Source: a virus. Taken from it: 64,000 nucleotides of DNA. Positions 1,351 through 59,616 of this stretch are shown one piece after another. Numbering within the stretch: position 1 is the first letter of the stretch; the number at the start of each line of letters is the position of its first letter. A model generated the notes under the pieces. That model searched no databases and had not been told where the DNA came from. It saw only the letters and a program-made list of their open reading frames with translations. The stretch is taken from the IMG/VR virus record IMGVR_UViG_3300045454_000119, positions 1 through 64,000 of that record, one strand, 5' to 3'. The position numbers and the translations under genes were made by a program.

Positions 1351-2136
1351 TTAGAACGGCCATTCATATCCATTGTCATTGAAGTAATTCCACGCCGGCC
1401 TGGTCTTCCACATGCCGTACTTGTATCTCAGCCAGTCCCGCGTTCCGACCGACTGGTTGTTGGCGTCAGGCTTAGCGCCGTGCCAACCCGGGCCGTATTC
1501 CGACCAGCGCACACTGTCCCCCAAACTGTCCGGCTTGACGAAACCTTCGCCACCGAGGAACTTGGCCTGGATGTCACCGAACTTGGGATCCTTTTTCCCC
1601 GTACACAGTCGGAACTCCCATTCCGCCGCATACGAGGTTGAGTAGCGGTTCGTAAACATCCACCCGAAAGCACCGCCAACCGTCGCACCCCCACCGCCAC
1701 CACCGATGAACCCACCCCACGCCCCGGGGGGGCCGCCCATAAACCATCCGACCGCCGTCCCCGCAACCGTTCCAAAGCCGCCGCCGATCCACGCGCCGTT
1801 TTCGACGGCAGCACTGTCCTCCCAGATCTCCACGTTTAGCTTGACGTGGAAAACGCCCTCTGGGTTACCCGTCTCCGGGTCGCGAGAGTACCATGTTTGA
1901 TAATCCGTCTTGTTGTCTCTGATGCCATCTTGCGGGTTGTAATCTCCCTTGTTGAGCCAGGTGTCCAAGAACGGTTCTTCTTTAAAAACAACCTTGTTAT
2001 TATCTACCACCACATCGAATCCGAAGTAGAACAACGCGATGGGCGGGAAGCCTTCATGCCGTGCGGTGTCTCGTTCCAGTCGACCGAACCACTCCACCTG
2101 CTTGCGCTCGTGCTTCGGGCCGACTCGGCGCCCCTT
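1351..2136 (-). other. Variable C-terminal tip of the RHS protein (toxin-domain candidate)
   Basis: This is the last 261 codons of the RHS gene, after the DPTGL boundary. The DNA is more A/T rich than the RHS core, as expected of an exchanged tip module. The encoded segment has a charged N-terminal part (KGRRVGPKHERKQVEWFGRL), a long glycine-zipper stretch at about tip residues 113-161 (GAWIGGG..GTVAGTAVGWFMGG..WGGFIGGGGGG), then an aromatic-rich end (WLRYKYGMWKTRPAWNYF). Glycine zippers occur in membrane-inserting and pore-forming proteins. I see no nuclease, deaminase or other known toxin motif. Confidence 0.6.
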
Positions 2137-5100
2137 CAACCCCGTTGGGTCGACGGTACCAACAGGGTCGTTACCCACGGCCTGGTACAGGTTGGAGACA
2201 CCTCCGGAGAAGCCGATGGGATCCTGGCTGCTCCACCGGCCGAGCGTCGGCGAGTAGTCGCGGTTCCGGAAGTGGTACAGCCCGCTCACTTCGTCGCGCC
2301 GCCCACCCTGGTGTGAGTACACCCACCCGTAATCGCTCGCCCCGTCTGCGTCGTTCGCCCAGTTCGGGTCCAGCATAGTGATTCGGCCGAACGGGTCGTA
2401 GGCGTACCGCTCGACCACTGCCCCGGTCCCGTCGACCAGGGCGGTGACGTTCCAGTTGGCGTCCTGCTGGGCCCACAGCCGCTCTTCCAGGGTGCCGTTG
2501 GCGTCCGTGTCCCGGTCCCGGACCACCAGGGCATCCACGTACACCGGGCTCCAGACGTACCGGGCGGCGGTGTTCGCCCCGACCTTCTCTTCGACCACCT
2601 GCCAGGCGGCCGAGTAGTACAGGTCGGTGGTGGTCCCGCCGGCGGTGGTCTTGATCCGCCGGCCGCCCCCGTCGTAGGCCAGTGTCTCCAGGGTCGTCCC
2701 GCCCGCGTTCTTGACCGTGACCAGCCGGTTCCAGGCGTCGTAGACGAACTGTTTCCCCGTCTCATCCCCGGTCATGTTCCCGTTCGGATCGAACGTCGGG
2801 GCCGTCGCCCCGGCGATGGAGGTGATCTCGTTCTGCCGGTTGGTCGTCCGGGCCTGGGCGGCGCCGTTCGTGGTCAGGCTGTCCCAGTTCCCCGCGGCGT
2901 CGTAGTCCCACCCCTGGGTCCGGCTGGCCGTCCCCGAGATGCCGGTCTTGCCGGCGTTCAGCGTCCCCCGGGCGAACGACGCCACCTGGTTCAAGCCGTC
3001 GTAGGTGTACACCTCCCCGAAGACGGTGTTGACCAGGTTGTCCCGGTACACCCGGTTGGAGTCCCGGTCGTACCCGTACTCGAACCGGTCGGTCGCCACC
3101 CCGGTCGAGGTCTTGACCCACCGCTGGTCCTTGACCCGGTCGAACCGGTCCAGCCCGATGTATTGATCGCCCGCGTCGCCGTTAGACTCTCCCGTCAGCT
3201 TCAAGTAGGTGAAGTCCACCCCCGGCTGGGGGCGGGTGCGGCGGACCACGGTGCCGAGCCCCAGGTAGTCGTACCCCTCGACCGTCCCGGACGTGTCCGA
3301 CAGGGACGATAGCCGGCTGATGGTGTTAGCGAGCCCGGCCGTGTAGTTGCCGGTGAGGACGTACCCGGACGGGTACGTCACCGACGTGGGCCGGCTGTGG
3401 TTGGCCCCGCCCGCCATCTCAGAGTAGGCGTAGCCCACCTTCGGGGTGGACCCGGTCACGGCCCCGCTGTGCGACTGCCAGTCGGCGGTGAGCTGGCCGA
3501 GGCCGTTGTAGTCCCGCTTGACATCGGTCACCACCGCCCCGCCGGACGCCGCAGTGTACGTCGTCACCTTGAACGGGTTCCCCTGCCCGTCGTAGGCCGT
3601 CTCGACCCGCCGCACCGCCCCGTCCACCCCGCTCCCGAGCGTCGTCGCCGCGTCCGCCGTCACCCGCCCGAGCACGTCGTAGGACAGGGTGTGGACCGTC
3701 CCGTTCCGGTCGGTGCTGGTCGCGGTCTGGCCGAGGGCGTTGACCGTCACGCTCTCCTGCTGGGCCGAACTCGCCGCACCGGTCGACGGGTCCGGCCACC
3801 ACGTCTTGCCGGCCACGTCGTTAGAGTCCAGCCCGCTCCCCCCGGCCCCGGACGTGACCCCCCACACCCACTGGGTCGTCTGCACCCCGCCCCCGGTCAG
3901 CCGGGCGGTCAGGCTGGACATCCCGGCCCCGTTGTAGGCGTACTCGGTGGTCTTGTCGTCGGCGTCGGAGACCACCCCGTCGACGTAGTTCTCGACCGTC
4001 TTGGCCGTCCGCCCGAGGGCGTCGTAGGTCGTCCGGGCGACCAGCCCCTTCGGGTCGGTCACGTCCCGCACCCGCCCGGCCGCGTCGTACAGGTAGCTCG
4101 TCACCAGGGCCGTGTCCGATCGGGCCGGGACCGTCCCGGGGCGGGTCCATGCGGTTCCGCCGTTCGTCCCCACGTCCACCGCCGCCGTCGCCCGCCCGCC
4201 GGCGTCGTAGTAGTACCCGGTGTAAGACACCCGCGCCTTGACCCCGGTGGTGGGGGTGCCCAGGGCCCCGGTCGCTGTCTCGTCGTGAAACCGCCGCCGG
4301 CTAGTCACGGTCAGCACCTTCCCGCCGGCGTCGTAGGCCGTCTCCCCCTGCTCCAGCACCGCGTCGCCGGTCACGTCGTCGGCGTGGTCCCACGACCCCG
4401 CTGCCCCGGGGGCCGGATCGCCCCCGCCGTCGGTGGCGTAGGTTACCGTCGCCCGCCCGGCCCCGTCGTAGGCGGTCTTGGTCACCAATCCGCCCGGCGA
4501 TCGGGTCTTGAGGACCCGGCCAGCCTTATCGTACCAGGTGTCGGTTCGGAGCGTGTTGGTACTCGCGGCCCCGCCGGACACCGAGTACATGTCGCTCCGG
4601 TAGACCCGCCCCAGCTCGTCGTAACTGGCCGCAGCCTGGGCTACCAGCCCGGACCCGGGCGCGTCCGGCACCCCGTCCGCGTTGGCGTCCGACGGCGTCA
4701 CCCCGTCCGCGTCGTACGCCCGGGTCTTCGTGACCTGGCCGAGGTTGTCGAGGTCGAGGTAGGTGAGCGGCCTGTTGACGGCCAGCCCGGCCGATGTCTG
4801 TTCGGCAGCTAGCGCCTCGACCCCGGCCTTGGTAGCCACGGCCCGATCCCGCCAGTCGTACCACGTCTGGGTCACCCGAGCGGCCCCGCCCAGCCCGGGG
4901 TACTCCGTCACCTTCGTTCGGGTCCCGTCCCCGACCCCGCCCCCGTCGTACTCGTACTCCCGGACCTTGACCAGGTTCGTCCCGGCCGTGTTGGCCGGTG
5001 ACCAGCTCCCGGTGGTCGGGGTGTCGTCCGTCCCGACCCACTCGCTCACCGCCCGCCCCAGCCCGTCGAACACCGTCCGGCTGATCGTCCCCTGGGGGGT

Positions 5101-8100
5101 GACCGACCGGTTCGGGTAGCCGCCGTGGGTGTACCCGGACTCGGCCCGGTAATAGTGGGTCCCGGACACCGCCCCGCTCAGGACCGCGGCCGTCGAGTAG
5201 GTGAGGCCGGACAGGTTGAAGTAGGCGTCCGAGTACACCCGTTGGCCGGCGCTGTTGACGTGGGACCGGGACAGGGACTGGAGGGACGAAACCGCCTCGG
5301 CCCCGGTCGGCCGGCCGCCGGTCACGGCCGGGGCGGCGGACATGGTCAGGGTCTCGGTGTACCCCCGGGCCCGGTCCTCCCGGGACACGACCGTCGGCCC
5401 GGTCGGGGCGGTCCCCGTCCACCCCGGGTACTGTCGGACCTCGCGGGCCGGGTCGTTGTACACCGTGTAGTCGATCACCCCGTCCGGCCGGGTCGTCTTC
5501 GTCGTCCGCCCGAGCGGGTCGACCTCGTAGGTCGTCGTCAGGTGGAGCCCGGCCGGGCTGGACCACCCGGCCGGTAGCCCGGCAAAGGTGGCGGTCAGGT
5601 CGGTGTCGACATCGGTGATCTGCTTGACCGCCGCCCCGGTGGCCGGGTCGTACTCGGTGTAGCCGATCGACCCGGCGGCGTCCTTCGCCCAGGCCACCCG
5701 CCCGAGGGCGTCGTAGGCGATGACGCTGGAGGTGGCTGTCCCTGGCCCGTTCTGGGCGGTGGTGACGGCCGGCAGGGTGGTGGTGACGGTCGCCGGGAGG
5801 GCGGTCGTGCCCTGCCAGGTGTACGACAGGGTGGTGGTCTGGGCCCCGGTCCCGTTCTCGTTCCGGTACACGGTGGTGGCGGCCGGGACGACCGTCACCC
5901 CGTCCCCGGCCAGGGCGTAGGTGGTGGTCGCCTGCTTGACCCCGGCCCCGCCCGTCCCCCGGTGGAGGAGCGTGTCGGTCAGCCGGGTGTCGACGTTCCC
6001 GCCGGAAGTCGCGGTCGCGTACTGGTACGCGGTCACCAGCCCGGACCCGGCCGCCAGGTGGGTCGCCCCGAGCCCGGTCGCCCCGTACCCGAGCAGGTCG
6101 GCCAGGGCCTCCGCGTGCCCGGTCACCGCCGACGGCCCGGCCTCCGCCACCACCCGCCGGGCCGGGTCCTTCAGCCCGCCGTACGGGTCGAGCCGGTAGT
6201 CCGGGGCGTACTTGCTCGCCCACCGCCACTGCTGGCCGGTGGCCGCGTCCTTGTACACCCGCAGCAAGAGGTCGTTGTTCCGGTTCAGGTAGTAGGTGTT
6301 CTCGTTCCCGTCCGGCAGCGTCTCGACCACCTTCCGGACCCAGGTGTTCGGCAGCTTGGCGAACGGCTCGGCCCGGGCCGCGTACGTGTACGTGTAGGTG
6401 CCCTGGCCGCCGGAGCAGGCCGAGCACCCGTCCCCGGCGGCCACCCGCTTGGTCGCCCGGTTGGACGAGTCGTACTCCAGGTAGGTGTCGGCGTACGGGG
6501 CGACCTGGGCGTCGGACAGGGCGTCCACGTTCGCCCCGAGGGCGGCCACCAGCCGGTCGTACGCGGCCGGGCCGAACGCGTACTTCAGGTTCCCCGGCCC
6601 CATCATCCCGGGGTAGTACCGGTAGTAGCTGGTCTCCACCGGGTTCCCGGCCGCGTCCTTGACCACCGCCAGCTTGACCTGGCCGGACCCCATCCCGGTC
6701 CCGTAGGTGTAGGCCGCCGACCGGACGGTCGACCACGCCCCGGCCCCGACCTTCCGCCGCAGGGTGGCGGTGTTGGCCGTGTAGTCGGTGGCGACCGACT
6801 CGGTCACCGCCGTCGCCCCCGACCCGACCACCGTCTGGACGTCGGTCGGCCGGCCGGAGGAGTCGTACGCGGCCACCGCCGTCTGGGACCCGCCCGGGGC
6901 GGTCACCGCCTTCAGCCGGCCGGCCAGCCCGGCCGAGGTGTTGGCCGAGTTGAAGTCCCAGAAGGTGTACCGGGCCCCCCGGCCGTCGGTCACCTCGACC
7001 ACCCCGTTGGCGGTGTCCTCGGTCAGCCGGTACGGGGCGTCGAACCGGGGGCGGAAGGTCGGGGCCTCGGGGGCCGACCAGTGGTCGAAGTACTTGTCGA
7101 AGAACGCCACCGGGTCGCCCCGGTCGACGACCGCCAGGGACGACCCGTTCGGGGCCCAGCCGTTGGGGTTGACCCGGGCCAGGCTCAGCCCCATCCCGGT
7201 GGTGGTCGTCCCGCCGGTCTGCCCGCCGGTCCCGGAGGCCAGGACGGACGCCCACCCCCACCCCTGGCGGGCCGGGGCCCCGCCGGCCCCCCCGCCCAGG
7301 TCGTCCCGCTTGAGGGTCACCGTCCCGTCCAGGGCGACCCCGCCGGCGGTCGCCGCCCCGGGGCTCGGCCCGACCCCCGCCCCGCCCCCCAGCCACCCGC
7401 CGCACCCGCAGTCCGCCGGGAGCGGGCCGGGGATCAGGGTGGCCTCGGCGAAGGCCTCCGACCCGGCCGTGTAGTTGGCGTCCCCGTTGTACCGGTACCG
7501 CACCCGCATGAACCCGTTGGCGTCGACGGCCAGGGCGGCGGTGACGATCCCGGTGTAGGCGTGCCCGTCCGCCCCCGGCTGGAGGGTGGCCGTCCCGAGC
7601 TTGGTGTTGGTGGCGTAGTCGTAGAAGTCGACCGTCCCGGTCGGGGTCGGGAGGGACGGGTTCTTGCTGTACCCGACCCGGACGGCGATCGGCTGGCCGG
7701 GGGCCAGCGAGGTGACCTGGGCCGCCATCGGGATGTTCATCGGCGGCGGGTCGTTGCTGGCCGCCACCCACACCCCGCCGGTAAAGCCCGGCCCGAACGG
7801 CTGGTACTCGCCCTGGGGGGCCGGGAGCTGGAGCCCGGTCGCCCCGTCGAACACCCGGACGGTGGCGGTCGGCCCGGGGCCGGTGCCCACCACGACATCA
7901 GCATAAGGATCGTCGCTCACATATGCGAGGGCCACCCGCACCCCGCCGGTCGCCTCCGCCCCGAACGGGGCGAAGTCCAGGAGGGTTCCGCCGGTGGCGC
8001 CGGAGAACACCCGCACCTGCGCGGGGTCGCCCGGACCGGTCCCGACGGCCAGGTCGAACGTCCCGTCCGCGTCCGCGTCCCCGGCCAACGCATCAGCACC

Positions 8101-8841
8101 GACCGACACTCCGCCCCGGGTGGCCGGGTCGAAGGCGTAGAAGCTGCCGAGCGGGCCGTCCACCGGGGCCGTGGTGAACAGGTCGTAGACCTTGACGTGC
8201 GGGGCCCCGCCGACCCCGGCGCCCACCGCCAGGTCGGCCAGCCCGTCCCCGGTGACATCCGCCGCGGCCACCGACACCCCGCCGTCGAAGTCCGGGTCGA
8301 AGGCGAAGAAGTCCCGGATCACCGACCCGTCGGCCCCGCTGAACACCCGGACCCGGGGGCCGCCGCCATGCCCGGCCGCGGTGATGACGTCCGGCACCCC
8401 GTCCCCGTCCACCTCCCCGGCCGCCACCGTCAGCCCGCCGGTGAACGTCTCCTCGTACGCCCAGAAGCTGCCGATCGCCCCCGGCACCTGCTCGCCCGTC
8501 TTCCCGTCCAACACCCTAACGTTCGGCCCACCACCCGGGCCGGGGGCGGCCACCAGGTCGGGGTAGCCGTCCCGGGTGAAGTCGGCCGCCGCCACCCGCA
8601 CCCCGCCGGCGAACGCCGTGTCGTACACCGCCCGCTCGAAGTCCAGCTCGCCGGTCTCGGCGTCGTACGCCCGGACCACCGGGGCCCCGCCCTCCCCGGC
8701 CCCGGCGAAAATCACCGGGAGGGGCAACGGCCGCCCGCCGTCCGGGACCACCCGGTCTTCGAGCCCTTCGACCCGCAGGGGAGCGGGTCGGCGCGTGGCA
8801 GTACGGGCCGGCTGGCGGAGCCAGTGGGTGAGACGGTTCAT
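1351..8841 (-). CDS. Giant secreted RHS/YD-repeat protein with FG-GAP N-terminal domain and variable C-terminal tip
   Basis: 2496 residues. Residues 22-34 (LRVEGLEDRVVPDG) carry the LEDRVxP motif found at the N-termini of large exported planctomycete proteins. Residues about 40-370 form repeated FG-GAP/VCBS units with Asp-rich calcium loops (e.g. AAGEVDGDGVPDVITAAG), a beta-propeller fold. An Ig-like segment follows (about 375-470). Hundreds of YD/RHS repeats (YDALGR, YDAAGR, GYTEYDPATG) form the shell that normally encloses a toxin. The RHS-associated core (YDPFGRI...RFR-type YHFRNRDYSPTLGRWSSQDPIG) ends at about residue 2235 with DPTGL, the usual boundary of the tip. The remaining 261 residues are unrelated to the shell. 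The gene is chromosomal in character and leftward, with the two-helix protein gene behind it. Function: inter-bacterial or cell-surface toxin delivery is likely from the family, not shown here. Confidence 0.93.
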   Translation of the reverse strand: MNRLTHWLRQPARTATRRPAPLRVEGLEDRVVPDGGRPLPLPVIFAGAGEGGAPVVRAYDAETGELDFERAVYDTAFAGGVRVAAADFTRDGYPDLVAAPGPGGGPNVRVLDGKTGEQVPGAIGSFWAYEETFTGGLTVAAGEVDGDGVPDVITAAGHGGGPRVRVFSGADGSVIRDFFAFDPDFDGGVSVAAADVTGDGLADLAVGAGVGGAPHVKVYDLFTTAPVDGPLGSFYAFDPATRGGVSVGADALAGDADADGTFDLAVGTGPGDPAQVRVFSGATGGTLLDFAPFGAEATGGVRVALAYVSDDPYADVVVGTGPGPTATVRVFDGATGLQLPAPQGEYQPFGPGFTGGVWVAASNDPPPMNIPMAAQVTSLAPGQPIAVRVGYSKNPSLPTPTGTVDFYDYATNTKLGTATLQPGADGHAYTGIVTAALAVDANGFMRVRYRYNGDANYTAGSEAFAEATLIPGPLPADCGCGGWLGGGAGVGPSPGAATAGGVALDGTVTLKRDDLGGGAGGAPARQGWGWASVLASGTGGQTGGTTTTGMGLSLARVNPNGWAPNGSSLAVVDRGDPVAFFDKYFDHWSAPEAPTFRPRFDAPYRLTEDTANGVVEVTDGRGARYTFWDFNSANTSAGLAGRLKAVTAPGGSQTAVAAYDSSGRPTDVQTVVGSGATAVTESVATDYTANTATLRRKVGAGAWSTVRSAAYTYGTGMGSGQVKLAVVKDAAGNPVETSYYRYYPGMMGPGNLKYAFGPAAYDRLVAALGANVDALSDAQVAPYADTYLEYDSSNRATKRVAAGDGCSACSGGQGTYTYTYAARAEPFAKLPNTWVRKVVETLPDGNENTYYLNRNNDLLLRVYKDAATGQQWRWASKYAPDYRLDPYGGLKDPARRVVAEAGPSAVTGHAEALADLLGYGATGLGATHLAAGSGLVTAYQYATATSGGNVDTRLTDTLLHRGTGGAGVKQATTTYALAGDGVTVVPAATTVYRNENGTGAQTTTLSYTWQGTTALPATVTTTLPAVTTAQNGPGTATSSVIAYDALGRVAWAKDAAGSIGYTEYDPATGAAVKQITDVDTDLTATFAGLPAGWSSPAGLHLTTTYEVDPLGRTTKTTRPDGVIDYTVYNDPAREVRQYPGWTGTAPTGPTVVSREDRARGYTETLTMSAAPAVTGGRPTGAEAVSSLQSLSRSHVNSAGQRVYSDAYFNLSGLTYSTAAVLSGAVSGTHYYRAESGYTHGGYPNRSVTPQGTISRTVFDGLGRAVSEWVGTDDTPTTGSWSPANTAGTNLVKVREYEYDGGGVGDGTRTKVTEYPGLGGAARVTQTWYDWRDRAVATKAGVEALAAEQTSAGLAVNRPLTYLDLDNLGQVTKTRAYDADGVTPSDANADGVPDAPGSGLVAQAAASYDELGRVYRSDMYSVSGGAASTNTLRTDTWYDKAGRVLKTRSPGGLVTKTAYDGAGRATVTYATDGGGDPAPGAAGSWDHADDVTGDAVLEQGETAYDAGGKVLTVTSRRRFHDETATGALGTPTTGVKARVSYTGYYYDAGGRATAAVDVGTNGGTAWTRPGTVPARSDTALVTSYLYDAAGRVRDVTDPKGLVARTTYDALGRTAKTVENYVDGVVSDADDKTTEYAYNGAGMSSLTARLTGGGVQTTQWVWGVTSGAGGSGLDSNDVAGKTWWPDPSTGAASSAQQESVTVNALGQTATSTDRNGTVHTLSYDVLGRVTADAATTLGSGVDGAVRRVETAYDGQGNPFKVTTYTAASGGAVVTDVKRDYNGLGQLTADWQSHSGAVTGSTPKVGYAYSEMAGGANHSRPTSVTYPSGYVLTGNYTAGLANTISRLSSLSDTSGTVEGYDYLGLGTVVRRTRPQPGVDFTYLKLTGESNGDAGDQYIGLDRFDRVKDQRWVKTSTGVATDRFEYGYDRDSNRVYRDNLVNTVFGEVYTYDGLNQVASFARGTLNAGKTGISGTASRTQGWDYDAAGNWDSLTTNGAAQARTTNRQNEITSIAGATAPTFDPNGNMTGDETGKQFVYDAWNRLVTVKNAGGTTLETLAYDGGGRRIKTTAGGTTTDLYYSAAWQVVEEKVGANTAARYVWSPVYVDALVVRDRDTDANGTLEERLWAQQDANWNVTALVDGTGAVVERYAYDPFGRITMLDPNWANDADGASDYGWVYSHQGGRRDEVSGLYHFRNRDYSPTLGRWSSQDPIGFSGGVSNLYQAVGNDPVGTVDPTGLKGRRVGPKHERKQVEWFGRLERDTARHEGFPPIALFYFGFDVVVDNNKVVFKEEPFLDTWLNKGDYNPQDGIRDNKTDYQTWYSRDPETGNPEGVFHVKLNVEIWEDSAAVENGAWIGGGFGTVAGTAVGWFMGGPPGAWGGFIGGGGGGATVGGAFGWMFTNRYSTSYAAEWEFRLCTGKKDPKFGDIQAKFLGGEGFVKPDSLGDSVRWSEYGPGWHGAKPDANNQSVGTRDWLRYKYGMWKTRPAWNYFNDNGYEWPF

Positions 8842-15712: not shown

Positions 15713-16366
15713 TCACCAGCCCCCTGTCGCCGTGGTCGTCGTGAACGAGAACGCCCCCGTATACGGGGACGCCTTGTCGAAGTCGAAGGAAAAGCCCTTC
15801 AGGATCTCCAGCGCCCGCTTCTGCACCCCGAGCGAGCGGGTGACCGCCTGCCGCTGGGCGGCGCACTGGTCGAGGGCGGACTGGACGGCCTGCTGGAACA
15901 GGTTCGGCTGGCCGGACACCGTCAGCTTGGCGGACAGGACCTCGGCGACGGCCGCGAGCTGCTTCTCCTCCTGCTCCAGGGTCTTCAGGTTCTGCCGGTT
16001 CTTCGCCTGCTCGGCCTCCAGCGTGCGGCGGAGGCTCCCGACCACGTCGAGCCGTTTCAGCCCGTCGGGGCTGGTCTGGGCGAGGAGTTTGAGGAACAGC
16101 TCCCGGAGGCCCTGGCAGGCGGCGCCGATCTCGTTGGCCTCGGTGCTGTCCGGCATCACCCCGAAGGTGTCGAAGAACGCCCGCTTCCGGTCGTCGGTGA
16201 GGGTCTCGTAGGCGAGCTTCACCGGCAGGAAGGCGTCGCCGTCGCCCCCGGCGTCGGGGTGGTGCCGCTTCGCGAGGTCGTAGTACGCCTTCTTGATCTG
16301 CTCCTTCGTGGCGGTCATGTCGACGCCGAGGGTGGCGTAGGGGTCGGTTTCAGTTCCCTGAGTCAT
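15713..16366 (-). CDS. J-domain (DnaJ-like) co-chaperone, 217 aa
   Basis: N-terminal J domain: DPYATLGVDMTATKEQIKKAYYDLAKRHHPDAGGDGDAF with the HPD motif at residues 36-38, which stimulates the ATPase of Hsp70 (DnaK). There is no Gly/Phe or zinc region, so it is a type III J protein. The rest is helical and coiled (residues about 105-140, RTLEAEQAKNRQNLKTLEQEEKQLAAVAEVL). A phage-borne J protein may recruit host DnaK for replication-complex remodelling or virion assembly. It overlaps the upstream gene by 17 bases. Confidence 0.88.
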   Translation of the reverse strand: MTQGTETDPYATLGVDMTATKEQIKKAYYDLAKRHHPDAGGDGDAFLPVKLAYETLTDDRKRAFFDTFGVMPDSTEANEIGAACQGLRELFLKLLAQTSPDGLKRLDVVGSLRRTLEAEQAKNRQNLKTLEQEEKQLAAVAEVLSAKLTVSGQPNLFQQAVQSALDQCAAQRQAVTRSLGVQKRALEILKGFSFDFDKASPYTGAFSFTTTTATGGW

Positions 16367-53727: not shown

Positions 53728-54201
53728 ATGGACTACCGCGAGAAGGCCCGCCGGATGCTGATCGAGGACGAGGGCCTCCGGCTCAAGGCCTACCAGTGTC
53801 CCGCGGGGGCGTGGACGATCGGGGTGGGGCACAACCTCTCCGCCCGCGGCGTCACCGGCCTCCGGCTCCTGAAGTACCGGACCGTCGGCATCTCCCACGC
53901 GCAGGCGATGAGGTGGCTCGACGAGGACGTCGCGGCGGCCGAGGCCGACTGCTCCCACCTGTTCGGCGACGCCCTGTTCGACTCGTGGTCCGACCACAGA
54001 AAGCTTGGGTTCGTCAATTTCCTGTTCAACTTAGGAAGGGACCGGGCGCTCAGGTTCCCGAACATGCTCCGCCACGCCCGCAACGGCCACTGGTCGAACG
54101 TCCGCGTGCACCTCGAAAACTCCCTCTGGTTCCGCCAGGTGAAGACCCGCGGGCCGAAGGTGGTCGCGATGATCTGCGACGAGGCCTGGCCGTATGGTTG
54201 A
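53728..54201 (+). CDS. Endolysin: T4-type lysozyme (GH24 family), 157 aa
   Basis: Catalytic arrangement E-8-(D/C)-5-T is present: E15, C24 and T30 in IEDEGLRLKAYQCPAGAWTIGVGHNLS. The Cys24 form is used by several phage GH24 enzymes with CPAG. The later part (DHRKLGFVNFLFNLGRDRALRFPNMLRHARNGHWSNVRVHLENSLWFRQVKTRGPKVVAMI) contains the typical F..G.......P.ML.A...G.W......L..S.W..QV..R.....M. Cleaves the glycan of peptidoglycan at lysis. No signal peptide, so it depends on a holin. Overlaps the next gene by eight bases. Confidence 0.93.
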   Translation: MDYREKARRMLIEDEGLRLKAYQCPAGAWTIGVGHNLSARGVTGLRLLKYRTVGISHAQAMRWLDEDVAAAEADCSHLFGDALFDSWSDHRKLGFVNFLFNLGRDRALRFPNMLRHARNGHWSNVRVHLENSLWFRQVKTRGPKVVAMICDEAWPYG

Positions 54202-56319: not shown

Positions 56320-57080
56320 CGGCTGGCACGGCCGGCCCCGGGGTGCCACGCTGGTCGTGCCGACGACCCTTCGCTTACTTCGTGGGAGCGCCCGCCGGGC
56401 CGAGAGGCCCACGGCGGGTGCGGACCGAACGGTCACACAAGTAGGACAGCGACGTCGAGGCGTCGTCCGAAGCAGAGCTGGGGAGATGGTATATTTACCC
56501 TCTCCCTAGAACTCGCCGAGGGGGTAGAGGGTCTCGGACCTTCCTCAACCTCGCCCGGGCCGGGAGCCGTCCACTGGGAACAGCGGGCGGTGGTAGCACA
56601 ACGGCTCAAGCCCGCGAGGGCGACCGGGTACGGGTGGACGGAGACGGAGCCACACCGCGAACGAGCGGGTGCGGGTTGCGGTAAGCTGAGGCTTGTGCGT
56701 TCTCCTCTCGGGCTGAAATCCACAGGCGGTAAAACCTGTGGGAAAGTGCCGCGCCGGGGGACTGGCGCGGATACCGCACCCGCCCCTCGGGGTAGGCCCC
56801 CGATAGCGACGTGACCCCCACCCGACGGCCGACGAGACAACGGGACCATTCGACGCCCGAACACCGCGAAGGTTGGGCGGGTGAGGTGCGAACGCGGGTA
56901 CGACGCTCGGGGGTTTTCGCAGAGGTTGTTGAGGGCCGCACGGCGGGGCCCGGGGGTTGACCAAGAGGGCATGAGCGCGACGGGGGGCAGGGCAGTCACT
57001 CCGTCGTTCCCGACGCGGGAGGAGGACAGCGTTCACCACGAAGGAGGCCGGGCGGCGGGGCGACGTGTCACCCGGAAGGG
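56320..57080 (+). ncRNA. Candidate large structured non-coding RNA (about 750 nt)
   Basis: No credible protein gene on either strand. The region is packed with perfect stems: 56324-56329/56343-56348; 56353-56358/56363-56368; 56391-56397/56412-56418, whose tip is a GGCC stem capped by a GAGA (GNRA) loop; 56481-56506, a two-step hairpin with TATT loop; long-range CCGTCCAC 56567-56574 with GTGGACGG 56634-56641 around GCGGGC/GCCCGC (56584/56610); long-range GCGGGTGCGG 56665-56674 with CCGCACCCGC 56774-56783 around the hairpins 56720-56741 and 56749-56770. The GNRA loop favours the + strand, the direction of both neighbours. Size and position after late phage genes recall GOLLD/ROOL-type giant RNAs but I cannot show homology. 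Ends are approximate. Confidence 0.7.
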
Positions 57081-57167
57081 TGAATGCACCGCCGACACCC
57101 GGGGAAGGTTCTGCGGCGGGATCTCGGGGGGTATCCCAAGTCGTACCACCCCCCGTACTCTGGACCC

Positions 57168-57833
57168 GTGACGGCCCCGTACCTCGTCAAAAGCCCCCGG
57201 CACCTGGCCCAGTACATCGCCACCAACCTGCTCACCAAGGGCTGGTTCTTCTACACGTCCTTCGCCCTCCCCGCCGACCGCGACCCGCTCCCGATCGACG
57301 CCAAGCTGCTCGTCAAGTTCGAGGCGTTCCACTCGAAGGAGCGGCAGTACCGGAGGAGGAAGGGCGGACTGGCGTCGGTCAAGTACCTCCGGTGCGGGCA
57401 GGTCGGCTACCTGTTCGCCACCCGCGGCGAGTGCCCGGCGTTCTTCGCGGCCGAGGACTACCGGGACGCCCGGGTCGCCCCGGTCCATGTCGCCGGCCAC
57501 ACCATCCGGGTCGTCCCCGACACGGGCAAGGTCGCCGTCCGCATCCACCGAGAGGCCCAACGCCGCCTGCGCCAGCACCTGCTGGAACACGTCCGGCTGC
57601 CGACCCGGGACCTGGAGGCGCTCATCTGGAATCTGGACCTCCTGCCGTTCGCCGGCGTCCGGGACGGTATCTTTGCCGCCCTCCGCGAACTGAACGCCGG
57701 CCGCCGGTCCCTCCGGCTCCCACCGGTCGAGTGGAGGAACGCCGTCCGCAAGCGGTTCAAGGTGGAGCCCGTGTTCGCCGAGACCCCGCCCGAGGTCGCC
57801 GACCTCCTATCCTGGTACGCGAAACAGCGGTAG
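57168..57833 (+). CDS. Planctomycete conserved hypothetical protein, 221 aa
   Basis: Start GTG at 57168 (VTAPYLVKSPRHLAQYIATNLLTKGWFFYTSFALPADRDPLPIDAKLLVKFEAF). The run KGW.FY.......DP..ID.KL..K......K..R.RRK.GLA...YLR....FLFATRG..PFF..E...D.R..P is a pattern I recall from planctomycete genomes, often as multicopy genes. An in-frame ATG at 57084 would lengthen the N-terminus, with less natural sequence. Function unknown; the central charged region suggests RNA or DNA binding. Confidence 0.78.
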   Translation: MTAPYLVKSPRHLAQYIATNLLTKGWFFYTSFALPADRDPLPIDAKLLVKFEAFHSKERQYRRRKGGLASVKYLRCGQVGYLFATRGECPAFFAAEDYRDARVAPVHVAGHTIRVVPDTGKVAVRIHREAQRRLRQHLLEHVRLPTRDLEALIWNLDLLPFAGVRDGIFAALRELNAGRRSLRLPPVEWRNAVRKRFKVEPVFAETPPEVADLLSWYAKQR

Positions 57834-58548: not shown

Positions 58549-59616
58549 ATGTCCAACCTGACGAAGGCGTCCCGGCAGCTCTACGGCCGCAAGCCCGACG
58601 AGTGCGTCGAGGGCCTCCCGGCCCTGCTCCGGCGGTGCCGCGAGCAGAAGGCCGCGAGCCTCGACCGGTGGCAGCTCCCGAAGGCGATCGAGCCGGTCCC
58701 CGCCCACGACGGCGTGGGGCTCCGGCTCGGGGCCGAGGGGACGTTCGGGCTGAACGACTGGAGCTTCACCCAGCTCTGCAAGATGGCGGGCGTGTCGAAG
58801 GACACGCTCAACAAGCTCACCCCGGGGACGGCGGCCCAGGCCCTGGCGGAGACCCTGCCGGTCGGCAAGAAGCCGACCCAGGTGCTCACCGAGGCCGGCG
58901 CCGTCCGGTCCGTCCACGGCACGAACTACAGCCGGCTGTGGAACGCCGACCTGGTCGAGGCCGTGGCCGACGCGGCGGGCGGGTTCGGCCCGCCCCCGAG
59001 GGCGTACACCGGGGCGACCGGGCTGTACCTGGGCGAGCAGGACGTGTTCGCGTTCCTGGTCGACCCGGACGGCTGGTGCGAGGTCGACGGGGAGGCGTTC
59101 GCCCCCGGCTTCTTCGTGTGGAACTCGGAGGTCGGCCGGCGGAGTGTCGGCATCCAGACCTTCTGGTTCCAGGCCGTCTGCCAGAACCACATCGTCTGGG
59201 ACGCGACCGAGATCGAGGAGTCCGTCTGGACGCACACCGCCAAGGTCGACGAGGCGGTCCCGACCATCAAGGCCCTGGTGGCCCAGCTCGCCCGGAAGCG
59301 GGACGAGCGGAAGGACACGTTCGTGAGGGTGCTCAAGAGGGCGGCCGAGGCCGTCCTCGGGGCCGACGCGGACGAGGTCTTGAAGGTGCTCGGCCGGCAC
59401 GGCATCCCGGCCGGCCTCGGGCGGATGGCCTGCGAGCAGTGCCACCGGCAGGGGAAGCGGTTCACGATCTTCGCCCTGGTGGACGCCCTCACCCAGCTCA
59501 ACCGGGAGGTGAGGTTCGCCGGCGACCGCACCGACGCGGACGTCCGGGCGGCCTCGCTGCTCAAGCTCGTCTTCGACAAGGGCGACGCCATCGCCCTGCC
59601 GGCCCTGTCTGTCTGA
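58549..59616 (+). CDS. Second DUF932-family protein, 355 aa
   Basis: NDWSFTQLCKMAGVSKDTLNKLTPGTAAQALAETLP, RSVHGTNYSRLWNADLVEAVADAAGGF, LGEQDVFAFLVDPDGWCEVDGEAFAPGFFVWNSEVGRRSVGIQTFWFQAVCQNHIVWDATEIEES are typical of plasmid-type DUF932 proteins (R..LS..Y...D...LL.A, ..G..L..G....NSE.G...L.....L.R..C.N). The group is a marker of mobile elements; function unknown. It is more like plasmid members, while the copy at 11447 is the phage-like TIGR03299 type, so the two came separately. Confidence 0.85.
   Translation: MSNLTKASRQLYGRKPDECVEGLPALLRRCREQKAASLDRWQLPKAIEPVPAHDGVGLRLGAEGTFGLNDWSFTQLCKMAGVSKDTLNKLTPGTAAQALAETLPVGKKPTQVLTEAGAVRSVHGTNYSRLWNADLVEAVADAAGGFGPPPRAYTGATGLYLGEQDVFAFLVDPDGWCEVDGEAFAPGFFVWNSEVGRRSVGIQTFWFQAVCQNHIVWDATEIEESVWTHTAKVDEAVPTIKALVAQLARKRDERKDTFVRVLKRAAEAVLGADADEVLKVLGRHGIPAGLGRMACEQCHRQGKRFTIFALVDALTQLNREVRFAGDRTDADVRAASLLKLVFDKGDAIALPALSV

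Follow-up and report, generated by a model that had tools for sequence, protein, structure and literature searches.

What occupies the gene-free interval behind the lysis genes of the virus record IMGVR_UViG_3300045454_000119? We analysed a window of 64,000 nucleotides (nt), which is part of this 67,172-base record and is identified as phage DNA by its TerL, portal, capsid, primase, helicase and endolysin genes. An earlier note, made from the letters of the window, had described the interval as a hairpin-dense candidate for a giant phage noncoding RNA, and its interpretation is partly supported. The comparisons reported here, all of them made on sequence, render it highly probable that the interval encodes an RNA of ~840 nt descended from circularly permuted (CP) group II ribozymes, with the companion gene acpG directly after it. 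The three features that define the locus are the following.

53728-54201: endolysin gene, one of the lysis genes ahead of the structured RNA
56320-57160, + strand, ends approximate: large structured RNA, a probable CP group II derivative, on the grounds that coding signal is absent, that a second phage has a homologue with a covarying fold, and that a profile of bacterial RNAs matches inside it
57168-57833, + strand: predicted acpG homologue with a GTG start, 221 amino acids, on the grounds of homologues right after the RNA in the second phage and in bacteria, and of a match to the Thermus AcpG profile

The position behind the lysis genes and the lack of genes, both claimed in the earlier note, hold. 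Between 56316 and 57160 no open reading frame (ORF) has the third-position GC bias of real genes. The same coding signal was not found in the syntenic interval of a related phage contig, G001, and a protein gene in this interval in relatives, an outcome the earlier note had considered, is likewise absent from that contig. A protein-coding explanation is therefore rejected. The structured element extends to ~57160, just ahead of the conserved gene at 57168. One could still suppose that there is no functional RNA and that GC-rich intergenic sequence folds here by chance, and single-sequence evidence is compatible with such an account. Six perfect hairpin stems of at least 7 base pairs (bp) were observed against 3.4±1.8 in dinucleotide shuffles, and 23 of 200 shuffles reach six, so the hairpin density stressed in the earlier note is real as an observation and weak as an argument. 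The RNA region has a fold z-score of −4.0 on the + strand; a coding stretch at 58600-59445 (+), within the gene at 58549-59616, reaches −4.6 and is thus as stable against its shuffles as the RNA, which calls for caution in single-sequence folding scans of GC-rich phages. Hairpin counting and single-sequence folding are not decisive for a structured RNA, and comparative proof is needed because the stem count lies within chance and a coding segment folds equally well.

This proof came from G001, which was found via its TerL (73% identity). It carries a homologous gene-free stretch in the same place, after the lysis genes and ahead of the same downstream gene, and its RNA shares 60% identity with that of the window. 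The consensus fold of the two has an energy of −235.8 kcal/mol compared with −158.4±8.1 for column-shuffled alignments (z = −9.5), and the alignment holds 49 compensatory pairs compared with 33±4; none of 100 column shuffles reaches either the observed energy or the observed pair count. By these sequence-based tests the structured RNA is confirmed as real, the decisive evidence being comparative, and the large structured phage RNA proposed earlier is borne out. Conservation, covariation and the profile matches described below refute folding by chance, which we regard as having practically no likelihood.

Identity with GOLLD or ROOL, to which the earlier note had likened the setting, fares differently. 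The window RNA resembles these RNAs in being large and ornate, in its size and in its phage setting after lysis genes. The covariance-model search that the note had suggested gave no match to GOLLD, ROOL, RNase P or any other Rfam family at the gathering or a permissive threshold. The view that this is a giant RNA of GOLLD or ROOL type, or belongs to an entirely new class, is furthermore contradicted by positive homology to CP-type RNAs, seen with both an RNA profile and a domain 5 model, and is very improbable.

The class in question was described as the “T-large” RNA, whose companion AcpG (TTHC007) is frequent and not obligatory (Roth et al. 2021, PMC8637638). It is recognised by domains 5 and 6 (D5, D6) placed at the 5′ end, by boundaries NU and GGGCG whose order is reversed, and by an accompanying ORF; CP-specific pseudoknots (P2-D2 and others) also count among the class features, and the ribozymes free a small circle, leaving a T-shaped branched RNA (PMC8637638). 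Previous reports place them on chromosomes and plasmids in Deinococcus-Thermus, Firmicutes and Proteobacteria (PMC8637638).

Bacterial relatives of the phage element were reached through its protein. When the two phage proteins were made into a profile, 8 of 392 Planctomycetota genomes yielded relatives, of which the one in G253 is probably spurious, as the match runs antisense to a better coding frame. With an improved profile, relatives turned up in 32 of the 170 genomes searched in a single family, several of them holding multiple copies, and a planctomycete protein used as query led to plasmids of a planctomycete, of cyanobacteria and of Planococcus. The acpG element is, by these searches, patchily distributed and multi-copy; one genome (G452) holds up to seven acpG-family matches, some of them fragments. 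In all, dozens of loci, planctomycete and plasmid, were reached through the protein family, with a conserved RNA of ~0.9-1.3 kb ahead of the gene, and an RNA profile of six planctomycete upstream regions matched all 25 additional loci with enough upstream sequence. The earlier proposal of a new class limited to planctomycete phages has accordingly to be given up, since planctomycete genomes and a planctomycete plasmid also hold the unit of RNA and protein, and plasmids of cyanobacteria and Planococcus carry relatives of it. Relatives of the RNA appear to link the phage element to Planctomycetota.

At the 5′ end of the bacterial homologues, Rfam RF00029 (the group II intron D5-D6 model) matches and is followed by a GGGCG boundary. 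At locus L251 the match terminates at ATCCGAT, the 3′ splice motif, and a short linker and then GGGCG follow. Bacterial copies have the D6 branch adenosine feature; D5 and GGGCG lie 72-175 nt apart in the 23 copies with a clean 34-nt D5, and the predicted excised linker measures 12-100 nt where the 3′ motif was also found. In the bacterial D5, 9 of 14 pairs vary on both sides and 99% of cells pair, compared with 26-42% in slid controls. The bacterial core gives 373 double-change cells against 62-132 in slid controls, a result somewhat favoured by the fact that the structure was predicted from the same alignment. Covariation, for which the earlier note had proposed a test, is thus strong in the phage pair and in the bacterial RNAs. 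As far as sequence can tell, the bacterial RNAs have the layout of CP group II ribozymes.

How much of this layout do the phages retain? An nhmmer profile of 32 bacterial RNAs, run over all 64 kb, ranks 56640-56818 (+) first with E = 8e-11, and the next match in the window has E = 0.78. A D5 covariance model, built only from bacterial D5s, has its best match on both strands of the window at 56388-56422 (16.3 bits), with all 14 pairs forming. The syntenic D5 of G001 scores 30.8 bits (E = 2.3e-8), and the predicted D5 structure is identical in all copies folded. The GNRA-capped two-step hairpin of the earlier note, GGGCC-GAGA-GGCCC within a longer stem at 56388-56421, is this very element. From 5′ to 3′, the features of the phage RNA are as follows.

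56388-56421, + strand: D5, 34 nt, a CGC triad paired with GUG (with a G·U wobble), 5 bp, an AC bulge, 5 bp and a GAGA tetraloop; from the bacterial D5 covariance model, the syntenic D5 of G001 and folds
56423-56434, + strand: 4-bp hairpin that would replace D6; from folds and a motif scan, assigned by position
56448-56454, + strand: AGCGACG, apparently replacing the GGGCGAC boundary motif at the start of domain 1 (D1) (GUGCGACG in G001); from its position relative to D5 and the bacterial GGGCG
56640-56818, + strand: conserved core on the D1 side, also present in bacterial CP-type RNAs and comprising GGAGACGG..GCC and AGCGACGTGACC, which form a long-range pairing; from the nhmmer profile and core covariation
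56715-56746, + strand: hairpin GAAATCCACAGG..CCTGTGGGAAAG, the stem in G001 being CCCTCGG/CCGAGGG; from the pairwise phage alignment
56983-57047, + strand: 3′ conserved segment (GGCAGGGCAGTC, CACCACGAAGGAGG), by position likely the region of domains 2 and 3 (D2/D3); conserved with G001 and, by eye, like the bacterial copies
57119-57154, + strand: 3′-terminal hairpin with a stem of G/C runs, possibly domain 4 or a terminator; from the sequence and a similar hairpin in G001

The D5 bulge is AC in the window and UU in G001, and the boundary motif at the start of D1 reads AGCGAC in the window and GUGCGAC in G001. D2/D3 of the window RNA were matched to the bacterial RNAs by motifs only. The CGC triad of the phages recurs in the D5 of plasmid copies from Leptolyngbya and Calothrix (L259, L260), most planctomycete copies having AGC.

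The downstream gene gives a second line of evidence. In both phages a homologous protein gene, intact and conserved, lies directly downstream of the RNA. The product of 57168-57833 has no Pfam or NCBIfam match. A profile of its own family aligns with the Thermus AcpG profile over 168 columns, collinearly and with 95% probability, and each of nine control proteins stays below 1%. These profiles indicate that the product is a remote homologue of AcpG, the companion of CP group II ribozymes. In the protein tree, the phage AcpGs nest within planctomycete AcpGs (support 95/82), a branching that suggests acquisition of the phage acpG from a planctomycete element. A profile search against solved structures gave no relevant match, and an AlphaFold model from two sequences (pLDDT 40) was not used.

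Several observations weigh against descent from CP group II ribozymes, or against the role proposed for the phage RNA below. RF00029, the Rfam group II model, matches neither the window RNA nor the G001 RNA. The profile of 32 bacterial RNAs does not find the Thermus RNA itself, and the link of the phage protein to Thermus AcpG is remote, with 18% identity. Control DNA of 1.06 Mb contains five matches as high as the window D5 score, so the case for the window D5 depends mainly on how exactly it corresponds to the G001 match. In folds and a motif scan of both phages, neither a bulged branch adenosine nor a 3′ splice motif nor an excised linker is recognisable between D5 and D1. Finally, the benefit that such a unit would bring to a mobile replicon is guesswork.

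In the phages the D5-to-D1-motif spacing is ~22-26 nt (~26 nt in the window), and between D5 and the motif that starts D1 only a hairpin of 4-5 bp fits. Two other D6 candidates, TTATCCGAT near the 3′ side of the G001 RNA and CCACCCGAC at 56818, were rejected, as chance alone should give about one such match in every 2 kb. The phage RNA accordingly has D5 upstream of D1, the D5 architecture, a body shared with the class through the D1-core match, and an adjacent acpG; D6 with a bulged branch adenosine and reversed splice boundaries with an excised linker were tested for and not found. Since these are defining CP features, we name the RNA a derivative of CP group II and not a full member.

Could the RNA nevertheless retain full CP group II activity and cut out a very small circle, its D6, branch adenosine and splice sites having diverged beyond recognition? 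An intact D5 in both phages would fit, as would GUGCG, the canonical 5′ splice motif, retained by G001 at the expected place. We consider this unlikely, given that both phages have ~22-26 nt between D5 and the D1 motif compared with 72-175 nt in the 23 bacterial copies, and that this interval contains no branch or 3′ motif. The opposite view, that the phages picked up a CP group II element of which an inactive, decaying relic is left, accommodates the loss of D6 and linker and the lack of Rfam matches. Yet at ~40% divergence between the phages the pairs are kept by compensation, D5 is intact, and acpG is conserved and intact in both, all of which argues for selection; decay is decidedly improbable.

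Our own proposal, made tentatively and somewhat less likely true than false, is that a permuted group II RNA which has no linker and no working D6, and which resembles a post-splicing form, has become fixed in the DNA of the phages, where it and AcpG make up a stable ribozyme-protein complex in the service of a mobile replicon. The RNA would be transcribed together with acpG and fold with D5 docked on D1, in the manner of group II introns. It would be unable to free the small circle made by bacterial CP ribozymes, because the branch site, the nucleophile, is unrecognisable and the circle-forming segment is missing. Hydrolytic cleavage is still open to group II cores that have no usable branch site, and the RNA may therefore persist as a ready-made catalytic-core complex with AcpG, capable at most of such cleavage, directed either at the D1 boundary or at a different nucleic acid. 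The beneficiary would be the mobile replicon carrying the RNA-acpG unit, probably so because bacterial units (L249, L250, L251, L253, L254) adjoin ParA, RepA-like, ArdC, integrase-like and transposase-like genes, the last two kinds named by eye from sequence. Such neighbours imply that the bacterial units ride on plasmid-like or integrative elements. In Planctomycetota the RNA and AcpG form a conserved unit beside genes of this type, and phages carry the unit in reduced form, which points to a task performed for mobile replicons. Should the phages truly have lost the circle-forming part, the conserved function (D5, D1 core, AcpG) would have been separated from circle production in nature, making the question of its role directly testable, and a stable AcpG complex of linker-free RNA would put the group II catalytic core to a new kind of use.

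With CP group II ribozymes the window RNA shares a D5 on the 5′ side followed by a D1-type core, a length of ~0.9 kb, an adjoining acpG homologue and an association with mobile replicons. It differs in being phage-borne, in its CGC triad and AC instead of UN bulge, and in lacking the GGGCG boundary motif, while D6 branch site, 3′ splice motif and excised linker are unrecognisable in the phages. Canonical bacterial group II introns have the same D5 plan (triad with G·U wobble, 5 bp, 2-nt bulge, 5 bp, GNRA loop). Unlike these introns, including those reported from phages (PMC12350094), the phage RNA is permuted and has no reverse transcriptase, no interrupted gene and no RF00029 match; with D5 at the 5′ side rather than at the 3′ end, and an adjacent gene without Pfam or NCBIfam match, a canonical group II intron was rejected.

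The 2025 survey of group II introns in phages relied on Rfam models (PMC12350094), which do not match the window RNA; “permut” does not occur in its text, nor do “phage” and “planctomycet” in the main text of PMC8637638. In a literature search that took in few subscription papers, no earlier or later report of a CP group II RNA in phages was found. The class is thus known from bacteria, and the reduced phage-borne form would be a new variant.

Among virus records, only the window phage and G001 were returned by two DNA patterns drawn from the RNA that they share, by three protein scans for AcpG and by three tblastn searches of 50,697 phage records, and in a more distant phage record (G002, possibly incomplete) neither a CP-type RNA nor acpG was found. 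Elsewhere in the window, a DnaJ-domain phage gene lies at 15713-16366 (−), and a 36-base segment at 3634-3669 (−) matches RNA positions 56875-56911 at 86%. The latter falls within a gene for 2496 amino acids with RHS and FG-GAP repeats (1351-8841) and is probably a chance match in GC-rich DNA.
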